Positions 987 to 21,243 of a DNA stretch of 64,000 nt are shown in pieces. Both the position numbers and the translations under genes were made by a program. Below the pieces are notes generated by a model that was not told the origin of the DNA, ran no database searches, and saw only the letters and a list, made by a program, of their open reading frames with translations. This DNA comes from Anabaena sp. PCC 7108 (GTDB lineage: Bacteria; Cyanobacteriota; Cyanobacteriia; Cyanobacteriales; Nostocaceae): assembly GCF_000332135.1 (NCBI RefSeq), contig NZ_KB235896.1, positions 2,305,403-2,369,402 of the forward strand. Direction: 5' to 3'. Position 1 is the stretch's first letter. The number at the start of each line of letters is the position of its first letter.

Positions 987-1645
987 CGCAGAACTCCTAA
1001 AAAATTAATTCAATCTGTACTATGGTTTGAAATTTTTGACGGGGATGCTGATCTTGAGCGAAGAAAACACTTCTAAAATTAAGCATAGGAAACCTTGGCA
1101 TCCCTGGCAACACAAATTACTATAATAGTTTGTAATAAAAAAGTTTTAGAAAACTTAACAAAAATTAATATTTTCCTTTAATAAGATCAAAATTCACGTA
1201 TTCCTAGAGGGGACGCTTATGCTTTATAATTTCTTTATTACATTTAGAAAATAACATTCATAACCAAGGTTAATCCTATTGTTTCAGGGCATTCAGATTC
1301 TGTACATTATACTGTCTCGGTTTTTTTTCATGTTTTGTTATCTGTACATAGATTAATTAAAAAGATATATAAATTTTTTAAATATATCCTATAAAATTAT
1401 TTGTTCAGAGTAGCAATAGAAATTTACAGCCAGAATATTTATGAATACATATAAGTGCATCTAAATAGGTAAAGTTATATTTAACTGCCATTTAATAACG
1501 GAGGCTAAAGCAAAAATGCTGATTTAAGTTTATTAGCAAAATAGTTAAGAAAAACTTGATTTTACCAAAATTAATTTTTTTTAAGCAAATGATGGTTATA
1601 AGGCTGTTTAAGAAACTAAAGGTTGAGTGGTCAAGGAAAATTTAA
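987..1645. promoter_or_regulatory. Divergent ccm / ndhF4 promoter region
   Basis: This AT-rich stretch of about 660 bases separates the carboxysome operon (minus) from the CO2-uptake operon (plus), so it must hold both promoters. I see no convincing ORF, RNA gene or named operator in it. A small inverted motif or a LysR-type (CmpR/CcmR) site would be plausible biologically but I could not point to one. Confidence 0.5.
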
Positions 1646-3502
1646 ATGAATGAGTTTCTCTATTTTACAAGTTGGTTTGTGCCTTTTTATAGCTTACTAG
1701 GCGCAATTTTAACTCTACCGTGGGGAATGGGAATAATTCAACGTACAGGGCCAAGACCTGCGGCTTACTTCAACTTGTTGACGACGATTTTGGCTTTTTT
1801 CCATAGCTTATTTGTATTTAACGATATATGGGAGAGAGATCCAGTAATCTTGGTAGTTAATTGGTTTCAAGCTGCGGATTTCAATTTATCATTTGCCTTG
1901 GAACTCTCCCCAGTCAGTATAGGGGCAATAGTTTTAATTACAGGATTAAGTCTATTAGCCCAAATTTATGCCCTGGGTTACATGGAAAAAGACTGGTCTT
2001 TAGCACGCTTTTTTGGTCTGCTAGGATTTTTTGAAGCCGCACTAAGTGGTTTAGCGATTAGCGATTCTTTGTTCCTGAGTTATGCCCTACTAGAAGTCCT
2101 CACCCTTTCCACTTACTTACTGGTGGGATTTTGGTATGCTCAACCATTGGTAGTCACAGCAGCGCGAGATGCTTTTTTAACAAAGCGGGTGGGAGATTTG
2201 TTACTGCTAATGGCTGTAGTCACACTTTCCACCTTAGCAGGTAGTTTAAACTTTTCCGATTTGTATGAGTGGGCGCAAACTGCTGAGTTAAATCCATTAA
2301 CATCAACTTTGTTAGGTTTGGCTTTGATAGCAGGTCCTGCGGGTAAATGCGCTCAATTTCCTCTACACCTGTGGTTAGATGAGGCCATGGAAGGACCTAA
2401 CCCAGCGTCGGTAATGCGTAACTCGTTAGTGGTTGGTGGTGGGGCTTATATGTTATACAAGATTCAACCATTGTTAGCACTATCGCCAGTAGCACTGAAT
2501 GCCTTGGTAGTTATGGGTACGGTGACAGCGCTGGGTGCAACATTGGTATCGATTGCCCAAATTGATATTAAACGGGCTTTATCTCACTCAACCAGTGCCT
2601 ATATGGGATTGGTGTTTTTAGCGGTGGGCTTAGAACAAGGGGGTGTGGCTCTCATGTTATTGTTAACCCATGCGATCGCTAAAGCATTATTATTTATGAG
2701 TTCTGGTTCAATTATATATACCACCCAAAGTCAAGACTTGACAGAAATGGGGGGTCTGTGGTCACGAATGCCAGCTACTACCACTGCCTTTGTTGTCGGT
2801 TCAGCAGGAATGGTGACACTGCTACCACTGGGAAGCTTTTGGGCAATGTTAGGATGGGCTGATGGCTTAGTCAAAGTTAGCCCTTGGGTAATTGTGGTTT
2901 TAGTGTTAGTCAATGGCTTGACAGCATTGAATTTAACCAGAATCTTCCGCTTAGTATTTTGGGGAACACCACAACCGAAAACTCGCCGCGCCCCAGAAGT
3001 TGGTTGGCAAATGGCCTTCCCCATGGTGACATTGACTATATTGACACTACTATTACCCCTGATGCTACAGCAATGGTATTTACTACCTAGCTGGGAAAGT
3101 ATTGATTGGTATATATTATTGTCTTTACTCGCTTCTACCTTCTTGGGTGTGGGTATTGGTTCGACAATTTATCTGCACAAAGCTTGGTCAAGATCAAGAA
3201 TTCTGGCTTGGAGATTTATCCAAGATTTGTTAGGTTATGACTTTTACATTGACCGAGTTTATCGCCTCACCATTGTCGGTGCAGTAGCTTTATTATCCAG
3301 GATTTCTGCGTGGAGCGATCGCTATTTAGTAGATGGTCTGGTAAACTTAGTCGGCTTTGCCGCAATTTTTAGCGGACAAAGTTTAAAATACAGCATTTCG
3401 GGTCAATCCCAAGGCTATATGTTAACTATCTTGGTAGTAATTAGCGTCCTGGGTTTTGTCATCAGTTTTTCACTAGGTTTATTCGATAAATTACCTTTTT
3501 AG
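1646..3502 (+). CDS. ndhF4: NAD(P)H dehydrogenase-type subunit NdhF4 (CO2 uptake, NDH-1MS')
   Basis: A 618-residue polytopic membrane protein of the complex I NdhF/NuoL family. It has the antiporter-like core, with a conserved glutamate in SYALLEVLTLSTYLLVGFW, lysine-containing helices (SIAQIDIKRALSHSTSAYMG) and LPLHLWLDEAMEGPNPASV. The gene is followed by ndhD4 and cupB, the arrangement of the constitutive low-affinity CO2-uptake complex NDH-1MS' on thylakoid membranes, in which cyclic electron flow drives conversion of CO2 to bicarbonate. Its position divergent from ccmK-ccmL matches this role. The start at 1646 is the first in-frame ATG. The assignment to NdhF4 rather than NdhF3 rests on the CupB-type partner. 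Confidence 0.9.
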   Translation: MNEFLYFTSWFVPFYSLLGAILTLPWGMGIIQRTGPRPAAYFNLLTTILAFFHSLFVFNDIWERDPVILVVNWFQAADFNLSFALELSPVSIGAIVLITGLSLLAQIYALGYMEKDWSLARFFGLLGFFEAALSGLAISDSLFLSYALLEVLTLSTYLLVGFWYAQPLVVTAARDAFLTKRVGDLLLLMAVVTLSTLAGSLNFSDLYEWAQTAELNPLTSTLLGLALIAGPAGKCAQFPLHLWLDEAMEGPNPASVMRNSLVVGGGAYMLYKIQPLLALSPVALNALVVMGTVTALGATLVSIAQIDIKRALSHSTSAYMGLVFLAVGLEQGGVALMLLLTHAIAKALLFMSSGSIIYTTQSQDLTEMGGLWSRMPATTTAFVVGSAGMVTLLPLGSFWAMLGWADGLVKVSPWVIVVLVLVNGLTALNLTRIFRLVFWGTPQPKTRRAPEVGWQMAFPMVTLTILTLLLPLMLQQWYLLPSWESIDWYILLSLLASTFLGVGIGSTIYLHKAWSRSRILAWRFIQDLLGYDFYIDRVYRLTIVGAVALLSRISAWSDRYLVDGLVNLVGFAAIFSGQSLKYSISGQSQGYMLTILVVISVLGFVISFSLGLFDKLPF

Positions 3503-3582
3503 GAGGGTGGAGGCAGTCTTGCTGGAGGTAATTATAATTTTCCTCCTCTCTCCATCTTCCCACCTCCCTCACTTCCCACCTC

Positions 3583-3801
3583 CTCACAAGGGTAGGTATT
3601 TTACATCGTCGTGAGGGCAAGACTTGGTGGACAAGGTGGACAAGGTGACAAGGGAGGAAAACTGTACAAAGGATGTACGATTGGTAACAAGAACTGACGC
3701 TCACCGGACTATTTTATGGATAAAATCTTCCTTGTCTACTTTCCCTCCTTGTCTTCCTGGTCTTGCCTTCACAGATAATATTAAAAACATACCCTTGTGA
3801 G
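3583..3801. mobile_element. MITE-like foldback element between ndhF4 and ndhD4
   Basis: A 219-base non-coding block begins with CTCACAAGGGTA (3583-3594) and ends with its exact reverse complement (3790-3801). A second, subterminal inverted pair lies inside (3611-3623 against 3760-3772, one mismatch). The block is abutted on both sides by the 11-base direct repeat CTTCCCACCTC (3572-3582 and 3802-3812), as expected for a target-site duplication. There is no transposase. The flanks are pyrimidine-rich, so part of the direct repeat could be chance. If transcribed, the RNA would fold into a long hairpin between two subunit genes. Confidence 0.65.
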
Positions 3802-3834
3802 CTTCCCACCTCCTCATCTTCCTAACACTTGCTT

Positions 3835-5334
3835 ATGCTGAGTACGTTGATTTTGCTGCCGTTGCTGGGTGCAACATTAATAGCTTTCTATCCTGCTACT
3901 ATGAGTGGGAAACTTTCCCGCAGCTTGGCTTTAGGCTGTGCCGTGATTACTTTCTTATGGACAATTTTTCTAGCCATTAAGTTTAATCCTGGGGAAGTTG
4001 GACAACAGTTTGCCGAGTCACTGCCTTGGGTAGATGCTTTAGGCTTAAACTATAATTTAGGAATAGATGGTTTATCATTGCCATTGCTATTGTTAAATGG
4101 ACTTTTAACCTGCATTGCCATCTATAGCAGCGATGAATCTCTTCAACGTCCCAGATTTTATTATTCCTTAGTCCTACTATTAAGTGTTGGCGTAATTGGA
4201 GCCTTTTTAGCACAGGATTTATTGTTATTTTTCATATTTTACGAATTGGAACTGATTCCCCTCTATCTGCTAATTGCAATTTGGGGTGGTGAAAGACGTG
4301 GTTATGCAGCAACTAAATTTCTAATTTATACTGCTGTTTCCGCCATCTTGATTTTAGCCAGTTTCTTGGGAATGGTTTGGCTGAGTGGTTCTCCGAGTTT
4401 TGGACTAGCAACTTTGAACACCCAAAACTTATCTTTAGCCACACAACTGTTGCTACTAGTGGGAATTTTGGTGGGTTTTGGCATTAAAATTCCCCTCGTT
4501 CCCTTTCATACTTGGTTACCAGATGCCCACGTCGAAGCTTCCACACCAATTTCTGTATTGTTAGCTGGTGTATTGTTGAAATTAGGAACTTACGGTTTAT
4601 TGCGGTTTGGGATGAACTTGTTGCCTGAAGCTTGGGCATATGTAGCCCCTTGGTTGGCAACATGGGCAGTCATTAGTGTGCTGTTTGGTGCATCTTGTGC
4701 GATCGCGCAAACAGATATGAAAAAAATGGTAGCCTATAGTTCTATCGGACATATGGGCTACGTTTTGTTAGCCGCCGCCGCCGCAACACCTGTAAGTGTA
4801 TTAGGTGCTGTCATGCAAATGGTTAGTCACGGCTTAATTTCCGCCCTGATGTTTCTGCTGGTGGGAGTTGTATATAAAAAAGCAGGTAGCCGTGATTTAG
4901 ATGTGCTTCGCGGGCTGCTAAACCCAGAACGGGGAATGCCTGTGATTGGTACTTTGATGGTTTTAGGAGTTATGGCCAGCGCTGGTATACCAGGAATGGT
5001 GGGTTTTATTTCCGAATTCATCATTTTTCGGGGTAGTTTAGCAGTTTTCCCGATGCAAACATTGATATCAATGCTGGGTACAGGTTTAACTGCCGTTTAC
5101 TTCTTAATTCTGCTCAATCGTGCCTTTTTTGGGCGGTTATCTGCACAGGTGAGCAATTTACCCAGAGTATATTGGAGCGATCGCATTCCTGCGCTAATTT
5201 TAGCAGTATTAATCGTGATTTTTGGTATCCAACCTTCCTGGTTAGTGTATTTAACTGAACCTAGCATCACAGCAATGGTAAATACACCAAGTTTAGTTGC
5301 AAATGTGTCAGTAGATAAACCAGGTAAAACCTAA
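3835..5334 (+). CDS. ndhD4: NAD(P)H dehydrogenase-type subunit NdhD4 (CO2 uptake, NDH-1MS')
   Basis: A proton-translocating antiporter-like subunit of 499 residues from the ATG at 3835; an in-frame TTG two codons upstream (3829) would add only Met-Leu and is less likely. Diagnostic segments are FYELELIPLYLLIAIWGG, with its key glutamate, IKIPLVPFHTWLPDAHVEAS and SIGHMGYVLLAAAAATP, all typical of the NdhD/NuoM family. It is the second gene of the ndhF4-ndhD4-cupB set, separated from ndhF4 by about 330 bases that contain a foldback element; most organisms have a short gap here. It acts in the thylakoid membrane with CupB in CO2 hydration. Confidence 0.9.
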   Translation: MLSTLILLPLLGATLIAFYPATMSGKLSRSLALGCAVITFLWTIFLAIKFNPGEVGQQFAESLPWVDALGLNYNLGIDGLSLPLLLLNGLLTCIAIYSSDESLQRPRFYYSLVLLLSVGVIGAFLAQDLLLFFIFYELELIPLYLLIAIWGGERRGYAATKFLIYTAVSAILILASFLGMVWLSGSPSFGLATLNTQNLSLATQLLLLVGILVGFGIKIPLVPFHTWLPDAHVEASTPISVLLAGVLLKLGTYGLLRFGMNLLPEAWAYVAPWLATWAVISVLFGASCAIAQTDMKKMVAYSSIGHMGYVLLAAAAATPVSVLGAVMQMVSHGLISALMFLLVGVVYKKAGSRDLDVLRGLLNPERGMPVIGTLMVLGVMASAGIPGMVGFISEFIIFRGSLAVFPMQTLISMLGTGLTAVYFLILLNRAFFGRLSAQVSNLPRVYWSDRIPALILAVLIVIFGIQPSWLVYLTEPSITAMVNTPSLVANVSVDKPGKT

Positions 5335-11549: not shown

Positions 11550-11692
11550 AACTCATATAGGGATTTTTTGGGGAATATTGTAACGTCGTTGTCATTGCTA
11601 AAATAACTTCATCAGCAGTGACACCCCAAAAAATAAACCATGACCAATTGTCTCCAGTTGAACCAATGACATTGATGATTAGTCTCAATGAT

Positions 11693-13075
11693 TTACGTGA
11701 TTCTATTACTTAGGAAATAACGCGGTTTACTAGTGACATATTCCATCATGTCGTTCTGCACTGTGAATCCGTTAGAGTTGTATTCAATTAGCGATCGCCA
11801 TTTTAGTTTATATATGCTTCCAAACAGCTGCTGAGAAGTAACAGGAGGCATGATGGCGTTAAGTAATTCTGGCATTAATATGGGTTTGCGGTGAATCGCT
11901 AAGGAATAGATCACGGTTTTCTCTAAATCTGATAAGCGTTGAAATTGTTGATCTAACAAATCGTAAATGTTGCTAAATACGGTTACACCTTGGTCTAAAA
12001 AAAGATCAATCTTACCAGAAAATAGAAAATCAATCTTGGTGGCAGCAATTTTGAGTATCAGCGGATTTCCGGCATAGTGATTATGTAAGGTTTGCCATTT
12101 TGCTTCAGTTTCGTTAATTCCTTCTGACTGTAAAATCTTGAGTCCGTCTTCAGGAAGCAGCCCCTTCAGAATCAGCGATTTTATCGAATTGGCTTTTTTC
12201 TCTAGTAAAATAAATGCGATTGGTGGTTCTCGACTGGTGATAATTAAACAACTTTTGTGGGTAGACTCCCCAATTCTGCGAATCAGTTGTCCATAGCCTT
12301 CAAACCCTTCCCGATATGATCCCCCTCGTTCTCCCCATTGCAAAATAGATTCTAGATTATCCAGAACCAGCAAACAACGAGTTTGATGGAGATAGTGCAT
12401 TAACTTTGATATTAATTGATCTGGAGGTTTTGGTAAATCAACGGCTTTCTGGTCAGAGAGGATGTGAATTAGCTCAGTTAAGGTTTCTTCTACAGTTGGA
12501 GCATGACGAAGCGAGCGCCAAATGACATACTTAAATTCTGATGATGACGAGTCTTTGCTGTTGGTAAAGCCTTGCATTAACTTGGCTATGAGACTAGTTT
12601 TACCCATACCACCCATACCTAAGACCATGATTAATTGACAGCGATTAACCTGAATCCACTGGTTCAATGTTGCCAGTTCTGCGGTGCGTCCATAGAAAAC
12701 GGAGACATTGGGGGCTAAACTATAATCCCCATAGGGCTGAATTTGAGGCTGTAGAGGTTGGATAGGGAATTGTGTTGAGTGTGTTTCTGGTTTGACTAAT
12801 GGGACGGAAGGAGGTGATTGATAATCATCAGCCTCTAGCACTAGATTAAATGCTTTGAAGCATTGAACTAGAGACTTTTTATCAACTCTGACGTTGCATT
12901 GAAAAATTTTGCATAGGGTATGAGAGTCTAATTCAGTCTGAATACTGAGATTATCAAGGGTAAATCGCTTGCCGTTATTTTCAGCATATTCCTTTGTTTT
13001 TATGGCGTTTTTAAGTTTATCTAAACCTTGATGCGTGAGGATTGACCCACGTTTACGTTTTCTTAGTAAGTCCAT
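11693..13075 (-). CDS. HTH-NB-ARC STAND NTPase, apparently lacking its C-terminal sensor repeats
   Basis: A 460-residue signal-transduction ATPase. Residues 1-90 form a small helical domain (LRKRKRGSILTHQGLDKLKN, then DKKSLVQCFKAFNLVLEADD) that fronts many cyanobacterial NB-ARC/WD40 proteins and resembles a DNA-binding HTH. The P-loop GMGGMGKTSL is near residue 155, a Walker B-like LLVLDNLESIL near 235, and ITSREPP follows. It stops shortly after MMEYVT, where relatives continue into a long linker and WD40 or TPR repeats; the last dozen residues look unrelated. It is therefore either a natural short form or a truncated gene. It lies opposite the patatin cassette, 418 bases away. No function beyond the STAND class is assigned. 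Confidence 0.75.
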   Translation of the reverse strand: MDLLRKRKRGSILTHQGLDKLKNAIKTKEYAENNGKRFTLDNLSIQTELDSHTLCKIFQCNVRVDKKSLVQCFKAFNLVLEADDYQSPPSVPLVKPETHSTQFPIQPLQPQIQPYGDYSLAPNVSVFYGRTAELATLNQWIQVNRCQLIMVLGMGGMGKTSLIAKLMQGFTNSKDSSSSEFKYVIWRSLRHAPTVEETLTELIHILSDQKAVDLPKPPDQLISKLMHYLHQTRCLLVLDNLESILQWGERGGSYREGFEGYGQLIRRIGESTHKSCLIITSREPPIAFILLEKKANSIKSLILKGLLPEDGLKILQSEGINETEAKWQTLHNHYAGNPLILKIAATKIDFLFSGKIDLFLDQGVTVFSNIYDLLDQQFQRLSDLEKTVIYSLAIHRKPILMPELLNAIMPPVTSQQLFGSIYKLKWRSLIEYNSNGFTVQNDMMEYVTSKPRYFLSNRIT

Positions 13076-13079
13076 AAGT

Positions 13080-13105
13080 ATAAAATATAAAATATAAAAT
13101 ATAAA
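13080..13105. repeat. Short tandem heptamer repeat (ATAAAAT)
   Basis: Three to four copies of the heptamer TAAAATA directly upstream of the STAND NTPase start. Slippage in this tract could alter promoter or leader spacing of that gene. The rest of 13106-13492 contains a HIP1-type site and no ORF; it must hold the promoter of the patatin gene. Confidence 0.6.
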
Positions 13106-13492
13106 TTTTTTTAAGCAAGGCCAAATAGGGCAAGAGGATTAGCTCTAACCGCTGGAAAAATGACCGAATTTTAGGAAAACCGGGATTAATCTGACAAGAG
13201 TATAAAGATACAGCTAAGAGATTGAACAGAGTATAACGCTTGCTTGATGTGTTTATTAATACAGCATTTTACAAAAAAGGGAAGTTTTAACAATTTGAAA
13301 TAATTCTGCGGTCTAATTTGCTTACAGTCTCAACGCTTGAAAGGGTTGTGGTAGAGAAGTGAGAGCGATCGTTTGTCGGGATTCTTAAGTTCCGTTGCTT
13401 AAGTTGGCAAACTTCCATTGCTGTATATACGTCGAGAGGTATAGAATCAGCCGATTAAACTTAATTTTAATGCTATTTAGTAGGCAACTTTT

Positions 13493-15070
13493 ATGTCACA
13501 AAAACTAGCGATCGCAATCAGTGGTGCTGTTTCTTTAGGTAGCTATGAAGCAGGTGTAATGTATGAAGTATTAGAGGCGATCGCTCAATATAATGAAAAA
13601 CGGGAAAAAGACGACCCAAATCGAATTGAAATTGATGTGATTACGGGTGCGTCAGCAGGTGGAATGACAGCAGGTATTCTTGCTCAAAAGCTACTCTGTG
13701 ATGGAGATAGTCTGCGTAAACCTTATGAGAACCCCTTGTATAAAGCGTGGATTGAAGATGTTGACATTGAGGAACTTCTTGAAGTCCCCAAAGAAATTGA
13801 GGAACTTCTTGAAGTCCCCAAAGAAAATTATAAAAATTCCCTACTGTCATCAAAGGTAGTAGCAGACATTGGAAAAAAATATTTATTAGATAATCCACCA
13901 AGCCCAAACAAGCTTCATCCTTCTACTGCTCAAGAAATTTTTGTGGGAATTGCAATGTCTAACCTAAATGGTTGGGATTACACCGTCAACCCACGTAATC
14001 AAGAAGGTGATGGTAAGTTTATATACACACGCTATAAAGATGGCTTTGTTTGCCGATTACAACATAATTCAGATGATTCTATCACCTTGGCTGAAATGTC
14101 TCTTGAACATACAAAAAATGACGCTGAATGGACGGATATAGATAAGACTAATTGGGAAATGTTACGCGAATGTAGTTTATCGTCTGGAGTATTTCCCCTT
14201 GCATTTGAAGTCAAGGAAATTAGAAGGGTTCCAGGCAAAGGTGAATTTGAAAACCGGGAAAATAAAGATTATTATTATACAGATGGAGGTGTTTTTGAGA
14301 ATGAACCATTAGGAATAGCTAAAAAGCTGGCAGAATGGGTTGACAATAAAGCCATCAAAGAGAACCCTCAAAACGAACCAAATAAACGCTTTTATTTATA
14401 TGTTGCACCAGGGAATAAAACCTCTACTGCAAATGTTGATTTTGGAAAAAATGGGATTGATCTTTGGACAACTCTAAATGCTTTGCTTGCGGCTGTCTTT
14501 AATCAAGCCCGCTTTCAAGATTGGATTATCAAAGATTTGGATGATACGAGTCCTATTTTCCAGATTACGACGAAAGATGAAAATTTAATTGGAGAGCTAT
14601 TTTCTGCTTTTGCTGGTTTCTTAGATATCCGTTTCCGTTTCTATGATTACAATATTGGTAGAGAATCAGCAAGAAAAGGGCTAGAGAAATTTTCAGAGAA
14701 AACTTCTAATCCCAATTTAGCTTACTGGACAGAGGCTAATGTAGAAGATAAAGATCAAAAACTTTTGTGGGAGTTTATTGATACAGAAGGTATAAAGCAG
14801 TCAATTGATCAGCATGACTACAGAGAATATGCTAAGAAGAATTCTATAGATCAACTTTTAGATATAGTTGATATAAAGAAACGAAATAAAATACTAGAGG
14901 CACTTCTAGCAAGATTCAGACAATTAATTAAGTTTGTTAGTGAAAAAATAGATGGAGAAGAAGAAAAAAAGAGGCCTTTTTTGGGTCTAGATCCAAGAGA
15001 TATCTTCGTAAAGATTGCAGTTGATCTAATAGTAAAACCCGTGCTTCAACGCAAGCTTTTTCCAAAATAA
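13493..15070 (+). CDS. Patatin-like phospholipase
   Basis: A 525-residue protein with a patatin domain: the glycine-rich oxyanion segment SGAVSLGSYEAG (residues 10-21), nucleophile motif GASAGG (Ser54) and catalytic Asp264 in TDGGVFENEP. The Ser-Asp dyad is intact, so it should be a lipid acyl hydrolase. No signal peptide or membrane helix is visible, suggesting a cytoplasmic enzyme that acts on membranes when activated. The C-terminal about 200 residues (FLDIRFRFYDYNIGRESARKG onwards) form an additional helical region seen in long bacterial patatins. It heads a run of four plus-strand genes (gap 177 bases). An in-frame 30-base tandem duplication lies at 13766-13825. Patatins serve as effectors in CBASS and other antiphage systems; that role here is inference. 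Confidence 0.85.
   Translation: MSQKLAIAISGAVSLGSYEAGVMYEVLEAIAQYNEKREKDDPNRIEIDVITGASAGGMTAGILAQKLLCDGDSLRKPYENPLYKAWIEDVDIEELLEVPKEIEELLEVPKENYKNSLLSSKVVADIGKKYLLDNPPSPNKLHPSTAQEIFVGIAMSNLNGWDYTVNPRNQEGDGKFIYTRYKDGFVCRLQHNSDDSITLAEMSLEHTKNDAEWTDIDKTNWEMLRECSLSSGVFPLAFEVKEIRRVPGKGEFENRENKDYYYTDGGVFENEPLGIAKKLAEWVDNKAIKENPQNEPNKRFYLYVAPGNKTSTANVDFGKNGIDLWTTLNALLAAVFNQARFQDWIIKDLDDTSPIFQITTKDENLIGELFSAFAGFLDIRFRFYDYNIGRESARKGLEKFSEKTSNPNLAYWTEANVEDKDQKLLWEFIDTEGIKQSIDQHDYREYAKKNSIDQLLDIVDIKKRNKILEALLARFRQLIKFVSEKIDGEEEKKRPFLGLDPRDIFVKIAVDLIVKPVLQRKLFPK
13766..13825 (+). repeat. Perfect 30-base in-frame tandem duplication
   Basis: Two identical head-to-tail 30-base copies (13766-13795 and 13796-13825), each encoding IEELLEVPKE within the patatin gene. 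Sequence identity at every third position shows the duplication is recent. The insertion lies after the nucleophile elbow in a surface-type acidic helix. Confidence 0.95.
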
Positions 15071-15246
15071 TAAAAGCCCTTGATACTAATGAGTTCGCGG
15101 TTCTTATATGCTACACCAATGGTAAGGATTCAGGTCTAAATTTGAGGGATTAAATTTGGGGTCTGCATATTAGGATTAACCATAGATTGAATAGCTTTGT
15201 CAAAAAAGTCAATCACAGAAATAGAAAATTAAGGCGGTTGCAATAA

Positions 15247-17169
15247 ATGACTGACGATATTATTGAGAAATCCGACGAGCCAAAAAATCCACCTAACCTT
15301 AGTATCTTGATTTCTTGTTATAAAAGCGCTTTGGATAAACTTGTAGAAAATAAGCATACTGATTGTAGAAATAAGGTTTTAGCTGTTCTTGTCGCTCGTG
15401 ATGCAATTCATGTAGCCTTGAATGGCGAATCTCCTATTTATCCTGAATCAGAACATATTAATAACCTAATTGACTTAGATAAGGAATTAAAAGAACACGC
15501 TTGTACCAAGTACATTGGTAGCGAGTTACCAGAATGGAGAAAGAGTGTGAATCCACAGTCAGAGCGATGGTGGTGGTATCTTAAATACCCCTCACCAAAG
15601 CGGCTTGACGAAGCGGTGAAATTATATTCTGACTCGCTGAGGGAATATGAAAAAGAAAATGACCCCTGGCATAAGGACTTGTGGGACTGGTTAACAATGG
15701 GAAACCTTAATCATGAAACGGAGGCAGAACGAGCGATAAATGTACTTCTAGCCCGTGAAGCAGTTGAGGAAGCGTTAAAGAATGAATCACCTTCTGATGA
15801 TCTGATAAGAACTATTATCGAGTTAGATATTATCCTGAAAAAGCACGGTAAAGAGATTGCCCGACGTAATCAATTGGCTAGATGGAAAAATAGCTTTAAA
15901 CACTTTTCAGATCAATGGTGGTGGAATCTCAAACCGACTGCTATTGGCTCACCAGATGAACCACAGTCTGGATTAGACGTACTTTTAAATGCCCTCGCCA
16001 TAGCGTTCTTGGTAGCTGCCACTAGCTTTACCATTAGTTCTGCCAAGGCTTTCAAAGACAGTAAAGATTTTGGTGTGGACGGTTTGATTATTACTGGACT
16101 ACAGGCTGCACTCTTGGGTGTGGCTGCTAAAGGCACTTTGACCACAGAGGGACGAAAAACTATTGAAAAATTCCTCATTACTATTGATGCGCCTCCGAAA
16201 CAGCAAGCATTAATAGTTTGTTCTTGTTCTGGTTTATTGCTGTTGATAACTGCGGGTATCAAAGTCTCTTTTTTACCTTGGTCTGCCCATAGTTTGTACA
16301 AAACAAATTTAGATAATGAACAGAGTAGAAAAATAGAAAATGTGGAAAATAATTACCAAAAAGCTATAAATTTAAATGACAATCCTAAATTTCGCTCAGT
16401 AGTCTATATAAAGTTAGGAGAACTTAACGAAAATCAATTTAATCTCAACAAAGCCCTAAAGAATTACCAAAATGTTTTAGAGATTAATCGCCGTAATCCG
16501 GCTGCCTATAACGGTATTGCAAGGGTCATCCTTTTACAGGAATTGGAAAAACAAAACTGGCAGATTAAAAAAGTTGAAAAAAAGGTACTTATTAAAGTTG
16601 AACAAAACTTGCAATATGCCCTTCAAAATCTAAATAATAATGGTGAAAAAGAGAATAATAATACGGATGAATATAAAAAAATAACGGATGAAGATGAAAA
16701 AATATACGAAAAATCTTTGACTTTTGTTCAATCTAAAATTCTTATTAATCAGGGTATTCTATTTTTAGTAAAAGGAAATAATAAAAAAGCAGGAAAAAAT
16801 TTCGATAGCGCAAAACAAAAAGCAGAACAAGAAATAAAAAATAAAAAGAAAAAGCTAGAATCAAAGATAATAAAGCTAGGATCAAAGATAACCGATAACG
16901 AATGTGAAGGACAATCAATATCAAATAATCAAACTTTCATTATCAAATGGTTGAGCCAATTTAACCGAGAAAAAAAATTATGCAAGCAATGGAAAGAAGA
17001 AATTAAAAAAATAGAAGATGATAATAAACCTCTAAAGACAAACATTGATAACATGGCTAAGTATTATGAAGCTATTATTAAAAGACAACTAAAAGATATC
17101 AATGACAATGATGGATTAACAGTTTATGATGAAATTATTGGAAAAAATTTAACTAGCACTGAAGAATAG
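15247..17169 (+). CDS. Membrane protein with duplicated Trp-triplet domain and TPR region
   Basis: A 640-residue protein I cannot name. Residues 15-120 and 155-230 are two copies of one helical module: V-L-L/V-A-R-E/D-A-(V/I) followed by a stretch ending in (E/D)QWWWNLK, with Trp triplets at 108-110 and 224-226. Similar modules front several cyanobacterial signalling or TPR proteins. Three hydrophobic segments follow (about 243-265, 278-297, 320-340). A TPR-like region comes next (YIKLGELNENQFNLNKALKN, about residues 380-430), and then a very Lys/Glu/Asn-rich coiled-coil tail. The Lys-rich tail makes the DNA markedly AT-rich. It lies between the patatin gene and the FHA-RDD gene, 101 bases upstream of the latter, and probably belongs to one operon as its membrane scaffold (inference). 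Confidence 0.7.
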   Translation: MTDDIIEKSDEPKNPPNLSILISCYKSALDKLVENKHTDCRNKVLAVLVARDAIHVALNGESPIYPESEHINNLIDLDKELKEHACTKYIGSELPEWRKSVNPQSERWWWYLKYPSPKRLDEAVKLYSDSLREYEKENDPWHKDLWDWLTMGNLNHETEAERAINVLLAREAVEEALKNESPSDDLIRTIIELDIILKKHGKEIARRNQLARWKNSFKHFSDQWWWNLKPTAIGSPDEPQSGLDVLLNALAIAFLVAATSFTISSAKAFKDSKDFGVDGLIITGLQAALLGVAAKGTLTTEGRKTIEKFLITIDAPPKQQALIVCSCSGLLLLITAGIKVSFLPWSAHSLYKTNLDNEQSRKIENVENNYQKAINLNDNPKFRSVVYIKLGELNENQFNLNKALKNYQNVLEINRRNPAAYNGIARVILLQELEKQNWQIKKVEKKVLIKVEQNLQYALQNLNNNGEKENNNTDEYKKITDEDEKIYEKSLTFVQSKILINQGILFLVKGNNKKAGKNFDSAKQKAEQEIKNKKKKLESKIIKLGSKITDNECEGQSISNNQTFIIKWLSQFNREKKLCKQWKEEIKKIEDDNKPLKTNIDNMAKYYEAIIKRQLKDINDNDGLTVYDEIIGKNLTSTEE

Positions 17170-17269
17170 GTTAAATTAATTGCTATTGGAAGTCTAGTCT
17201 TGAGTCTTTTTCTTTACCAGCATATTAAGGCAAGATAATACTAAATTTAAACTGTAAATATCTAAAATT

Positions 17270-19183
17270 ATGTCAGACAAACAAGAAATAGAAATAACAT
17301 TCCGGTGGACTGAAGAACGACAAAAACTACGTAAAACTTTTCAATTTAAGCCAAACAAAGACAAAAATAATTCCTTCAAAATTGGACGTAAGCCTAATTA
17401 TGAGTGTGATTTGTGTCTTGAAGATCCCTCTTTAGAATGGGTTCATGCAGAAATTTTCTGGAAGGATAAAAATGAAAATCAGGAACAGGGTTTTTATCTA
17501 AAATCTAATATTTCTGGTGATAATTGTCTTAAGGTTGATAATTATATTGAGGTTATTGGTCAGATTGTACAAAATGATGAAAAGCCAGAAGATAAAGAAG
17601 TAAAACGAAGTCCATTAATTTTTCTGAAAACACTAGCATTGAAGATTGAAAACCTTTTGTCTCAGTTAGATAAATTATTGAAATATAAGTATAAAACATA
17701 CCCATTCGCAGAAACACTAGCATTGAAGATTAAAGACCTTTTTTCTCAGTTGTTATATAAATTATTGGAATATTATAAAACATACTCAGAAAAGAGTAAA
17801 AAAGAAAAACTTGAAGAAGTAAAACTTGAAGTAGATAATCGCATAAGAATAGGAAAGACATTGTTGAAAGTAGTTTCAATCTCTTTATGCGAAGAAACTA
17901 ACCCTAATTCTCCTAAAGAGAATTTATGGAAGTATTTGAATTTTGGCGTTGCTGATTTCGAGTATGATTTATATTTGTTGGCGATCACTAAACTATTACA
18001 TGACCAATACTTCAGATTATTAGATTTTTATTTTCATACCTTGATTCAGCAACGCCTGAATTTTATTAAAAGTAAGCATTTATGGAAGCATTTATGGAAT
18101 TTTATTAAAAGTAAACTTTTATGGAAGCGTTTTTTGGCATCATGTATTGATTTTGTTGTCTTGATTATGTTTCCTGTTATACAATTAAAAGTTGTTATTT
18201 CCATTAATTGGCTAAATAATTTTGCTAGTCAATTATTTTCCGACAACGAAGTTATTTTGATGTTGCTATTTTTGTGGCCGTTAATTGTATATCCTACTTT
18301 CTTTGAGTTTAAATTTCATAACACAGCAAAAGAAGAAAATTACAAAGATAAATCTATAAAATTGACAATACGTCCTTTTTCTCGTCGGGCAAGTTTTGGC
18401 AAACGTCTCTTGGGAATTTATGTAACTGACTTAAACAATGAGTCCATCTCCATTTTTAGTTCAATTGCGAGATGTTTTTTCCAACCTTTATTTATTTTTG
18501 GATACCTTTTTCTAATTGATACTATTCAGAATTTTTTGTTACCTAGACTTGGATTTATGCCCATTTCTATTAATGGATTATTGATATTTTGTTTGAGTAT
18601 CATCCTAATTATTATTAATTTTATTATGCTTGTTTTGACAAAAAATGATCAATCTTTGCGCGACTGGATAACTAAGACAAAAATTGTAGAAAGAAAAGAA
18701 GTTCCATTATGGAATATAGTTGTTAAAATTAAAGGTTTTTTGTTTAAGAGATGGCTTCCTATATTTCTATTTTCAATAGTTCTATTTCTAATAGTTGTCT
18801 CTCCTTCAAAATTTTCAGATTACTATCATCACAAAGGAAATGAACACTTATCTCAAGCAAAAAATTACTACAAAGAGAAAAAATATAGCAATGCCAAAAA
18901 AGAATATGATAAAGTTATAACCTACTATAAAATAGCAGAAAACCTCGATAATAAGAGAAATTATACTGCCTATGCTCAATACGAGAAGGGATTAGTTAAT
19001 TCTAAATTAGGTAATTCTAAATTAGGAAATAATCAAAAGGCGATCGAAGATTTTAAAGAGGCGATCAAAGATTTTGAGGAAGCCAAAATAATTTTTGAAA
19101 ACAATAAAGATAAATCTAGCGCAGAAAACGCACGTAAACAAATCAATCAGCTTCAGTCCAAAGTTAAGGAAAATACCAAATGA
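17270..19183 (+). CDS. FHA-RDD-TPR membrane protein
   Basis: A 637-residue protein. Residues about 5-100 look like an FHA domain (FKIGRKPNYECDLCLEDPS, then VHAEIFWKD), but where FHA domains have Ser-Arg-x-His this one has Glu-Trp-Val-His, so phosphothreonine binding is doubtful. Residues about 285-490 contain an RDD-family membrane domain (RFLASCIDFVVLIMF; ASFGKRLLGIYVTDLNNES; NDQSLRDWITKTKIVE). A further membrane helix at about 500-518 precedes a TPR-like C-terminus with YYKEKKYSNAKKEYDK and AIEDFKEAIKDFEEAK. Several short internal duplications occur (ALKI-LLSQL segments at about 123-170; FIKSK-LWK at about 260-285; NSKLG twice near 580). The 3' end overlaps the next gene by four bases, so the two are translationally coupled. 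Confidence 0.7.
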   Translation: MSDKQEIEITFRWTEERQKLRKTFQFKPNKDKNNSFKIGRKPNYECDLCLEDPSLEWVHAEIFWKDKNENQEQGFYLKSNISGDNCLKVDNYIEVIGQIVQNDEKPEDKEVKRSPLIFLKTLALKIENLLSQLDKLLKYKYKTYPFAETLALKIKDLFSQLLYKLLEYYKTYSEKSKKEKLEEVKLEVDNRIRIGKTLLKVVSISLCEETNPNSPKENLWKYLNFGVADFEYDLYLLAITKLLHDQYFRLLDFYFHTLIQQRLNFIKSKHLWKHLWNFIKSKLLWKRFLASCIDFVVLIMFPVIQLKVVISINWLNNFASQLFSDNEVILMLLFLWPLIVYPTFFEFKFHNTAKEENYKDKSIKLTIRPFSRRASFGKRLLGIYVTDLNNESISIFSSIARCFFQPLFIFGYLFLIDTIQNFLLPRLGFMPISINGLLIFCLSIILIIINFIMLVLTKNDQSLRDWITKTKIVERKEVPLWNIVVKIKGFLFKRWLPIFLFSIVLFLIVVSPSKFSDYYHHKGNEHLSQAKNYYKEKKYSNAKKEYDKVITYYKIAENLDNKRNYTAYAQYEKGLVNSKLGNSKLGNNQKAIEDFKEAIKDFEEAKIIFENNKDKSSAENARKQINQLQSKVKENTK

Positions 19184-20184
19184 GCAACATAGCAAAAACT
19201 GAACCAAATAACCGCCCCAACCTCCAAAAAGGAGACAAAACAGAGTGGGTTGTCTTTCTCCAAGACATATTAAATGGATGCAAATGCAACCCATTAAACC
19301 TTGATGGAGACTTTGGTAATAACACAGAGAATGAAGTCAAACGATTCCAGCAAAAAGTTGGTTTAACAGCAGATGGTAAAGTTGGTGTAAATACATGGAC
19401 AGCCCTTGATAAATATGAAAAATTATTTGGCTGGCAATGTGAGTGGCCTAGTGCATTGAGTTTAACCGGCATCGGTGGAGTTGACACCTTAGAAAATGTC
19501 ACAGCTAACATGATTCCCAAAGCAACCACCTTTATGGGAACTCCTCCACGTTTTTGGGGACGATATTTCCAAGGCAACAGCAACGATGGTGAGTACCTTC
19601 GCGCAAAAGAAAATAAGCCCTTGCATGATGCCAAAATTAGACTTTTACCAATTTCCAGACAGACTAATAAAGTTGATGGTACACAACAAAAAGGAAAAGA
19701 AATCGGTAGTAGTCACGCACAAGATTTGATATCAACCTTTGGAGAAGATTATCTAGCTGCACAGGGAGATAGCTTCTATTTCTTCCTTGATGTTGAAGGA
19801 ATTGAGGGACAACCATCATTATCCAAAGAGTTTTATTTAGGATGGTCAGAAGCCGTTTTAAATGCCAGTAGTAAAGTGAAATTGCTTCCTTGCGTTTACC
19901 TGAGTGCCAAGCAAGATCCAACTTCAAAACTAAATCTCAGTGCTGCTATGAAAGCCGGCGCACAATGTCATGGTTTATGGGTTGCCAATTACGGTAATCA
20001 ACAACCAAATCTGCGCCCTTGGGATCGAGATCAAATAGCACCTGCAAATCCAGTTCCTTGTAAGGTTTTAATTCATCAATATGCAGGAGATATTGCCAAT
20101 GGACTATTTGATTTTAACCAAATTAATCCATTCTTAGACAATCCAGAATTAGTTATCCAGCGACTCATTTTACCACCAGCATAA
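19180..20184 (+). CDS. Peptidoglycan-binding protein with DUF1906 glycoside hydrolase-like domain
   Basis: A 334-residue protein. Residues 12-75 form a PG_binding_1 domain (KGDKTEWVVFLQDILNG; LDGDFGNNTENEVKRFQQK; ADGKVGVNTWTAL). Residues about 100-330 resemble the DUF1906 (Rv2525c-like) TIM-barrel, related to lysozyme-like hydrolases, with acidic residues in YFFLDVEGIEG that sit where catalytic Asp/Glu would be. The start ATGA overlaps the previous stop, showing coupling to the FHA-RDD gene. No signal peptide is visible, which is odd for a wall-binding enzyme; it may need a non-Sec route or act after lysis. Gene order suggests it is the last member of the patatin cassette. Confidence 0.75.
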   Translation: MSNIAKTEPNNRPNLQKGDKTEWVVFLQDILNGCKCNPLNLDGDFGNNTENEVKRFQQKVGLTADGKVGVNTWTALDKYEKLFGWQCEWPSALSLTGIGGVDTLENVTANMIPKATTFMGTPPRFWGRYFQGNSNDGEYLRAKENKPLHDAKIRLLPISRQTNKVDGTQQKGKEIGSSHAQDLISTFGEDYLAAQGDSFYFFLDVEGIEGQPSLSKEFYLGWSEAVLNASSKVKLLPCVYLSAKQDPTSKLNLSAAMKAGAQCHGLWVANYGNQQPNLRPWDRDQIAPANPVPCKVLIHQYAGDIANGLFDFNQINPFLDNPELVIQRLILPPA

Positions 20185-20218
20185 TTATCGCAATTTTAAT
20201 AATCTGGAAGACGTTGCA

Positions 20219-20662
20219 TTAATCCTTCATTCTTCTCATTGCTGAAAGAGAAGGATATTTTTTATTGTCAATAAGTAACTGACTTTCTAATAAACGAGAT
20301 TGATCATTAAATCCTAAAATTCTAGCCGTCACTTGTCCTATATTTGTGAGAGATTCAATAGTAGAATTATTCAGTTTAAAATGTTCTCCCCAATTATCCC
20401 AACGAGGATGATAAAACCGCACAAATTCTTTTTTATCTAAAATAATTGAACCGATATCACTGCCTTTAAAACGATTACAATAAACACAACAATAGGCTAG
20501 ATTATCTATATTTGATGAGCCACCATGTTTGATACTAATAATATGATCAATGGCACACCCTAAAATGGTATCATGTTCAGCAATCAGGCAATATTCACAT
20601 AAATTATCTGCTCTTTCTGCCACTAAACGGCGAAGTTCTAGATTTAAATAAGGACGCTCCAT
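20219..20662 (-). CDS. HNH endonuclease
   Basis: A 147-residue HNH nuclease. The motif is complete: CEYCLIAEHDTILGCAIDHI (zinc Cys pair then Asp-His), ISIKHGGSSNIDNLAYCC, and CNRFKGSDI. The C-terminal part (RFYHPRWDNWGEHF) is shared with many small cyanobacterial HNH proteins. It lies nine bases after the 85-residue gene upstream on the same strand, and the two recur as a pair in cyanobacteria as far as I recall. Possible roles include a toxin, a homing-type nuclease or DNA restriction. It converges with the DUF1906 gene at a 34-base gap. Confidence 0.8.
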   Translation of the reverse strand: MERPYLNLELRRLVAERADNLCEYCLIAEHDTILGCAIDHIISIKHGGSSNIDNLAYCCVYCNRFKGSDIGSIILDKKEFVRFYHPRWDNWGEHFKLNNSTIESLTNIGQVTARILGFNDQSRLLESQLLIDNKKYPSLSAMRRMKD

Positions 20663-20671
20663 AATGGAATT

Positions 20672-20929
20672 TTAAGCCTTTTCGTTAATAAAATCATAAG
20701 CCCTAGCTTTTGCTAATCTTAATAAATGTTCTAGAATAAAATAATGATCTAATTCTGATTTTTCCTCTGAAGAAATACCATCAGTTTTTTCTCGAAAAAT
20801 CAAATCAGATACTCTTTCTTTTACTGTTTCTGATACTTGAAATTCAACTAAACTTTGAGATGTTATGCCAGCAGCGAGAAAGTTGATTATCTCTTCATAA
20901 GCTGGATTAATACTGATTGATGTTTTCAT
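20672..20929 (-). CDS. Small hypothetical protein paired with the HNH nuclease
   Basis: An 85-residue, mostly helical acidic protein (MKTSISINPAYEEIINFLAA; VKERVSDLIFREK; ELDHYFILEHLLRLAKARAY). I do not recognise a named domain. It is the first gene of a two-gene unit, with nine bases to the HNH gene, a layout like that of an antitoxin or specificity partner, but no DNA-binding motif is evident. It ends AYDFINEKA. Confidence 0.65.
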   Translation of the reverse strand: MKTSISINPAYEEIINFLAAGITSQSLVEFQVSETVKERVSDLIFREKTDGISSEEKSELDHYFILEHLLRLAKARAYDFINEKA

Positions 20930-21243
20930 GATAATTAATTATCTCCTTAAGGATAGGAGCGAAGGACACGTTCGCGTAGCGTGCCATAGGCATAGGGAAG
21001 AGGGAAGAAGAGAGTTTTTGGTGTTGCTAAGGTTATTTTTTCAAAATTGGGATGCTCCCAGGAAAGAAGGCTGTCAGTATGTATTGAGTTCTGTATGGCT
21101 ACGCCACGCAAGCTATCAAAAATCAAATAGGAGTCCTATATTAAGGATATAGCATTTCCAGTTTTTTGCATTATTACACTTATAGCGATCGCTCTCCCCA
21201 ATAAGATAAACTGCAATAAAAGAGCGATCGCATAACATACTTT
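20930..21243. other. Intergenic region with REP-like text and a HIP1-containing inverted repeat
   Basis: About 310 bases between divergently arranged promoters and the bciB 3' end. The part 20965-20999 (GTTCGCGTAGCGTGCC and neighbours) is a common cyanobacterial interspersed repeat. At 21185-21195 and 21221-21231, GCGATCGCTCT and AGAGCGATCGC form a perfect 11-base-pair inverted repeat around a 25-base loop, just after the bciB stop, so it may act as a processing or termination hairpin. An apparent plus-strand ORF of 74 codons through it is not credible. Confidence 0.5.

Follow-up and report, generated by a model that had tools for sequence, protein, structure and literature searches.

Exchangeable gene content between a STAND NTPase gene and an endolysin-like gene in Anabaena sp. 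PCC 7108 and its relatives: a candidate envelope-attack locus

The DNA analysed here, referred to below as the window, is a stretch of 64,000 nucleotides (nt) from Anabaena sp. PCC 7108 (assembly GCF_000332135.1, contig NZ_KB235896.1, positions 2,305,403 to 2,369,402), whose genome is 5.9 Mb in size. It carries four genes at 13493..20184, which an earlier note on this sequence had read as a cassette of a patatin lipase, two membrane proteins and a peptidoglycan-binding protein. Comparison with related genomes gives a different picture, in which genes 1 to 3 are cargo in a slot between an NB-ARC STAND NTPase gene with its leader and gene 4. The sequences show directly which protein families are present, that cargo is exchanged, where the left slot edge lies, that the frame occurs at several places and that it is under purifying selection. 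We propose, at a probability of about 45%, a conflict locus that is mobile and swaps its cargo, with the cassette as one of its states; controlled by the NTPase, its products would attack the envelope of the cell that carries it. The features are as follows (window coordinates, strand, description).

11550..21243, no strand: block missing from the corresponding place in four genomes of the same genus, which have about 455-485 bp there
11693..13075, minus: NB-ARC STAND NTPase (Pfam NB-ARC), 460 aa, divergent from the cargo
13368..13422, plus: 55-bp leader, left slot edge, with direct repeats AAGTTCCGTTGC (13387) and AACTTCCATTGC (13410)
13493..15070, plus: cargo gene 1, predicted patatin-like phospholipase (Pfam match, dyad), 525 aa
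15247..17169, plus: cargo gene 2, W-triplet helical repeats, transmembrane segments and TPR, 640 aa
17270..19183, plus: cargo gene 3, FHA, RDD and TPR membrane protein, 637 aa
17944..18056, plus: interspersed element bounded by inverted repeats, read in frame within gene 3
19180..20184, plus: gene 4, wall-binding domain and Rv2525c/GH25-type barrel, endolysin-like, 334 aa, right slot edge
20219..20662, minus: HNH protein, 147 aa; in G257, G260, G261 and G266 it also adjoins gene 4 or what remains of it
20672..20929, minus: 85-aa protein without Pfam match, forming a pair with the HNH gene

The comparisons used a family set of 217 genomes and an order set of 214 genomes. DNA of the STAND gene and leader was matched in 19 of the 217, and in eight of these (PCC 7108 included) the match comes to within 2 nt of the leader end. 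From the remaining 11, G261, G128, G258 and G309 were examined, and seven with matches of 65-70% were left out. All eight leader-end genomes carry differing contents beyond the leader. The clearest case is G154, in which the STAND gene and the intergenic region are 89% identical in nucleotide sequence to the window up to 13422; other genes then follow, and likeness to the window resumes just before the start of gene 4, with shared DNA from 19155-19170. The same left edge at 13422 is found against G154, G257, G266, G400 and G307. The contents of the slot are listed here.

Window: patatin, W-TPR and FHA-RDD proteins
G154, unit 1: 223-aa membrane protein, NTPase and TPR pieces, 170-aa protein, Lipase_3
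G154, unit 2: VanY and wall-binding domain
G400: 223-aa protein, pentapeptide-transmembrane protein, PDC-M14B-like protein, dioxygenase
G257: membrane protein and Amidase_3
G265: lipoxygenase and a 546-aa hydrolase-like protein (read by eye) without Pfam match
G255: 168-aa protein; two membrane proteins, of which one has sub-threshold hydrolase matches
G307: membrane-patatin fusion (28.9 bits against a cut-off of 27.7)
G266: none

Apart from gene 4, five of the eight genomes have a lipid- or peptidoglycan-acting enzyme over the Pfam cut-off, namely patatin; Lipase_3 and VanY; Amidase_3; Lipoxygenase; and membrane-patatin. The 223-aa membrane protein of G154 matches SLATT_5 at 15 bits, below the cut-off, and one cargo protein of G400 matches the PADLOC model PDC-M14B (41 bits). 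The empty state is seen in the metagenome-assembled genome (MAG) of Anabaena sp. 54 (L118, the same contig stretch as G266), where STAND gene, leader and gene 4 follow in succession without cargo, and just a pentapeptide-repeat tail (read by eye) lies between leader and gene 4. G154 holds two units in tandem, with a second leader and another copy of gene 4 that has an internal deletion; such a tandem may provide the homology for loss or exchange of cargo by recombination. Outside the slot, in G174 (L106, 4799-8881), the gene immediately preceding a patatin relative encodes a 712-aa protein that shares 38% identity with the 546-aa cargo protein of G265, so that relatives of two slot cargos stand side by side there.

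The frame around this variable content is under purifying selection. The STAND open frame is 446-460 aa long in five genomes, with a ratio of non-synonymous to synonymous substitution rates (dN/dS) of 0.19-0.41 among four of them. For gene 4 the ratio is 0.17-0.33, with one close pair at 0.49, and for the HNH gene it is 0.09-0.12 against the window. The STAND protein matches NB-ARC at 41.6 bits (cut-off 23.5) and its N-terminus is helix-turn-helix (HTH)-like as read by eye. Pfam finds no repeat family that could form a C-terminal superstructure, either in the 460-aa protein or in the G154 and L118 versions. The two direct repeats of the leader, AASTTCCRTTGC, sit just inside the edge, and a search for leader copies in nine genomes found the leader in two, PCC 7108 and G154, the latter with two copies.

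The frame is also found at more than one place. Besides the four same-genus genomes listed above, three more genomes of the family lack the block at the window's place, with up to 556 bp there; in the eighth genome of this empty-site comparison, G154, only the left side was matched. DNA common to other genera has its left limit at 11697-11733 and its right limit at 20948, and the latter limit was seen in six of the g5 genomes. Parts of the frame occur at three chromosomal places. In G400 the frame occupies the same place as in the window. The second place, near a gene for a glycosyltransferase-like protein of 389-400 aa (read by eye), holds the frame in the g5 genomes G154, G255, G257, G265 and G266 and remnants of it in G128, G258, G260 and G261. 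The third place holds STAND fragments in G307 and G309. G257 combines the frame at the second place with an empty site at the window's place. No transposase or integrase was seen by eye among the open reading frames (ORFs) of the block.

In further lineages a gene for an NTPase without repeats also stands beside gene 4. Nostoc linckia and Calothrix brevissima encode NTPases of 458-466 aa with HTH-like and AAA_35 parts, whose genes diverge from those for wall-binding proteins and gene 4, and in an Oscillatoriales MAG (L128) another NB-ARC protein of 441 aa is divergent from the gene-4 barrel, which is followed by a C39-like peptidase. In a Rhizonema MAG (L127) the barrel, without a wall-binding domain, ends a 941-aa ORF (1383-4208); an AAA ATPase gene (412-1413) lies directly before it and an NB-ARC/WD40 protein of 1488 aa is encoded alongside. 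Together the ATPase and the barrel ORF may represent a conflict system of MoxR type. In G384:C763, an open frame of 952 aa gives matches like those of the Rhizonema ORF.

Gene 4 has a PG_binding_1 match (52 bits) and no predicted transmembrane segment. The earlier note had labelled it DUF1906-type; Pfam gives wall-binding domain families only, with no match to a Rv2525c-like/GH25 family or to DUF1906, yet the label is right in substance, because a profile search reaches PDB entry 1sfs (E 7.5e-10) and the predicted structure (pLDDT 88) matches both 1sfs (E 4.5e-12, target TM-score 0.81) and Rv2525c (6e-8, 0.56) in a fold search, with GH25 lysozymes at 0.5-0.6. Profile and model searches liken the N-terminus to the wall-binding domain of phiKZ gp144 (3bkh). 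Residues D204 and E206 form a D-x-E pair which we take to be catalytic; both are invariant in 17 sequences, and in a set of 21 D204 is invariant and E206 nearly so. Gene 4 has endolysin matches in PHROGs, and a viral contig that also carries portal (294 bits) and tail genes encodes a relative with 49% identity (L136); the barrel had no match among 50,697 phage records. Barrel matches, remnants included, were found in 14 of the 217 family genomes and in 18 named contigs. Among plasmids there are 22 records, none of which covers 80% of the protein, and the 20 listed all fall within residues 4-109. The neighbouring HNH protein has a weak PtuB-like PADLOC match (28 bits).

The cargo genes of the window have been further analysed. 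As the earlier note had it, the four ORFs are co-oriented; they lie on the plus strand, with spacings of 176 nt and 100 nt and then a 4-nt overlap. The flanking NTPase and HNH genes were recovered in a Pfam scan of ten window proteins. Gene 1 matches Patatin at 41.8 bits (cut-off 27.7), and the dyad was correctly described as intact, with S54 in GASAG and D264 in DGG; judged by its sequence, it belongs to the patatin-like phospholipase family. It is the sole patatin match in its own genome. A 30-bp tandem duplication (13763-13822, copies 97% identical) lies inside the gene, giving EELLEVPKE twice. The lipase model of CBASS (cyclic oligonucleotide-based antiphage signalling system) scores 14.5 bits against a cut-off of 200, and no nucleotide cyclase family was found among the ten proteins scanned, so CBASS was rejected for this gene.

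Genes 2 and 3 encode membrane proteins, as had been claimed, with three and five transmembrane segments predicted from hydropathy; the same method gives none for genes 1 and 4. The three segments of gene 2 lie between residues 245 and 340. Two W-triplets are present in this protein, and its TPR matches are weak and under the Pfam cut-off. In gene 3 the FHA (23.4 bits, cut-off 20.7) and RDD (40.6 bits) assignments hold, the TPR matches again falling under the cut-off. The gene-2 family has tandem helical units ending in WWW, followed by transmembrane segments and then TPR; it is widespread in the order (L107-L111), receives TPR matches only from Pfam, and has three tandem copies in G188. A single-sequence structure prediction for gene 2 was unusable (pLDDT 38).

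Gene 3 contains an element that the earlier note did not record. It is about 113 bp long, encodes residues 224-262 or so of the 637-aa protein, and has inverted-repeat ends GGCGTTGCTGA/TCAGCAACGCC. Its relatives in L082, L085, L089 and L090 are open through the element in the same frame; L082, L089 and L090 have a long open frame on both sides and L085 has 21 aa before it. The relatives in L081 and L083 lie in short frames, and that in L086 has stops. We take the element to resemble the in-frame palindromic elements of Rickettsia.

The four families occur apart. Relatives of gene 1 are present in 18 of the 214 order genomes, PCC 7108 counted. Of the 17 others, stretches from seven genomes were covered (four by ORF, three by tblastn only), and four plasmids were added; for gene 2 five genomes were examined, weaker matches lying outside the comparison. 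In tblastn searches of 49 stretches, none of the 11 with a patatin relative has a relative of gene 2 or 3, none of the five with a gene-2 relative has one of gene 1 or 3, and no stretch with gene 4 has any of genes 1-3. The gene-4 wall-binding domain alone (residues 15-79) was matched in one patatin stretch, on a Calothrix plasmid, and in two gene-2 stretches. Apart from these domain matches, no second stretch has even two of the four genes, and the 214 order genomes contain no full-length relative of gene 3. The four-gene operon of the earlier note is therefore rejected as a conserved unit and is now very improbable, for all the co-orientation, short gaps and 4-nt overlap of the genes.

What survives of the earlier note is its theme of membrane and wall attack, as a theme of exchangeable cargo in five of eight genomes and not of a fixed operon, and the STAND gene as partner, in the changed role of forming the slot's frame together with gene 4. 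The coding strand of the cassette showed no terminator-like site, and the number of promoter-like sites in the region is in line with chance (26 observed, 28.7 expected). PADLOC 2.0.0 gave no convincing match for the four cassette proteins (patatin best at 15 bits, none for genes 2-4), and a known PADLOC system was accordingly rejected.

The close relatives of the patatin have other surroundings. The four closest are without genes 2-4 nearby. A GMC oxidoreductase (read by eye) is adjacent to or near the relative in G045 and G174, and on the Calothrix plasmid the relative stands beside an annotated peroxidase and an annotated GMC oxidoreductase, with an annotated peptidoglycan-binding protein, matching only the gene-4 wall-binding domain, about 2 kb downstream. 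On the Acaryochloris plasmids pMB05 (L002) and pMB04 (L003) patatin relatives are annotated as two or three pieces and look decayed. The viral contigs searched hold no relative of genes 1 or 2.

We hypothesise that the locus works as follows. The constant parts are the HTH-like/NB-ARC STAND gene pointing away from the cargo, the intergenic region with the leader, gene 4 at the right edge where it is kept, and the HNH/85-aa pair, and the cargo between them is replaced as a whole. The STAND protein, lacking C-terminal sensor repeats, could serve as a switch either at the leader or on the cargo proteins. Once it fires, the cargo would attack the cell's own membrane, through patatin here and, in other genomes, through lipase, lipoxygenase or membrane proteins. 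The TPR and FHA/RDD membrane proteins would position the enzyme or gate it. The wall would be attacked by gene 4 or by alternative cargo such as VanY or amidase. The likely gain is that an infected or damaged cell is stopped before its neighbours suffer, which would give the cassette an antiphage function.

Several observations weigh against this proposal. The apparent envelope-enzyme theme was noticed post hoc. At least one patatin match is present in 189 of the 217 family genomes, and close relatives of gene 1 elsewhere look metabolic. The left edge is less sharp in some comparisons: G265 and G255 share 30 nt past 13422 with the window, and G154 (second leader), G257, G266 and G400 mutually share about 15-24 nt past it. 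G266 and G400 lack the first leader repeat. Truncated or fused STAND genes occur in G266, G128, G255, G307 and G309. Five of the eight slot genomes (G257, G400, G265, G255 and G307) have lost gene 4 or carry it broken, so that it is non-essential, and seven cyanobacterial stretches with gene 4 (L100, L101, L121-L125) have no window-type STAND gene. The lipoxygenase of G265, which a lipid-remodelling role would fit, and the lack of a convincing PADLOC match for the four cassette proteins count on the same side.

A competing explanation is a neutral insertion hotspot. Permissive intergenic places would collect passing genes that do not function together, and the STAND gene would be a truncated relic. 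The extent of decay (cut STAND genes, gene-4 remnants, the empty state) fits such a hotspot, as do the heterogeneity of the cargo, with no lipid or wall enzyme over cut-off in G400 and G255, and the toxin-antitoxin-like small genes read by eye at the flanks. The post hoc recognition of the enzyme theme leaves this explanation some probability. The left edge common to five genomes, the purifying selection seen in the frame, lipid or wall enzymes in five of eight genomes, and the NTPase beside gene 4 in further lineages all argue the other way, and we consider the hotspot unlikely, though it is the strongest of the competitors.

Two further explanations seem to us less likely still, and about equally so. 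One is a two-step lysis switch with exchangeable parts: the HTH/STAND protein would control the slot at the leader, the lipid enzymes and proteins with several transmembrane segments would take the role of a holin, and gene 4 would be a domesticated, signal-less endolysin of phage type that thereby reaches the wall. The other is a lipid-remodelling or oxylipin locus, in which fatty acids released by a lipase are converted by partner oxidases into signals or chemical weapons, with no lysis of the cell itself. Lipid remodelling suits the G265 cargo of lipoxygenase and 546-aa hydrolase-like protein, the likeness of the latter to the neighbour of the G174 patatin relative, and the peroxidase and oxidoreductase on the Calothrix plasmid. 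It leaves VanY, amidase, gene 4 and the STAND gene unexplained, and the Pfam scan found no oxidase in the window's cargo.

Export of the proteins against other cells or hosts, by contractile injection or similar means, is improbable. Signal-less lipases and wall enzymes are usual among injected effectors, which is a point in its favour. Cargo with several transmembrane segments fits export badly, and Phage_sheath_1 (PF04984) had no match in the PCC 7108 genome, the control matching in 3 of 14 genomes and sheath families of type VI secretion systems not being searched; a phage-type contractile sheath in this host was set aside as improbable on that ground.

Patatin, STAND, Rv2525c-like and TPR proteins and exchange hotspots are already known kinds, and the proposed envelope-attack locus can be set beside several known systems. 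In fungal NOD-like receptors (NLRs), patatin nearly always accompanies NB-ARC, and a part in the control of cell death is inferred for effectors of the lipase type (PMC4986451). The locus shares with these the link of an NB-ARC STAND NTPase to patatin or another lipase; the fungal proteins are single chains with C-terminal repeats (PMC4986451), whereas the locus has separate genes, no repeats and exchangeable cargo. Conflict systems of multicellular bacteria join STAND NTPases to varied effectors, wall enzymes included (PMC7159879), and the STAND/MoxR-vWA systems of these bacteria, multicellular cyanobacteria among them, share with the locus an NTPase with varied effectors, repeats and membrane parts (PMC7159879, PMC8195603); the locus differs in that no MoxR or vWA gene was found among the window proteins scanned. 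The Rhizonema barrel ORF after an AAA ATPase gene is a possible link between the two.

The pairing of a wall-binding domain with a Rv2525c-like barrel, as in gene 4, is found in combinations that are further fused to TelC and come from other phyla (PMC12419801), whereas gene 4 stands alone at the slot edge. Phage endolysins (phiKZ gp144, GH25 types) have the wall-binding domain (3bkh) and GH25-like barrel in common with gene 4, which differs in being chromosomal and adjoining an NTPase gene, with no holin recognised and its catalysis putative. CapV of CBASS has the patatin fold of gene 1 but is set apart by the low score of gene 1 (14.5 bits against 200) and the lack of a cyclase among the neighbours scanned. 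The open-access literature yielded no description of such a locus; subscription papers and preprints were outside that scope.

If the proposal is correct, cyanobacteria hold a small mobile locus in which a constant switch is combined with exchangeable envelope-attack cargo. The DNA behind one leader across many genomes would then be a direct source of new lytic or antiviral effectors, and the pairing of NB-ARC with lipase in fungal immune receptors would be tied to a bacterial counterpart that encodes NTPase and lipase separately.

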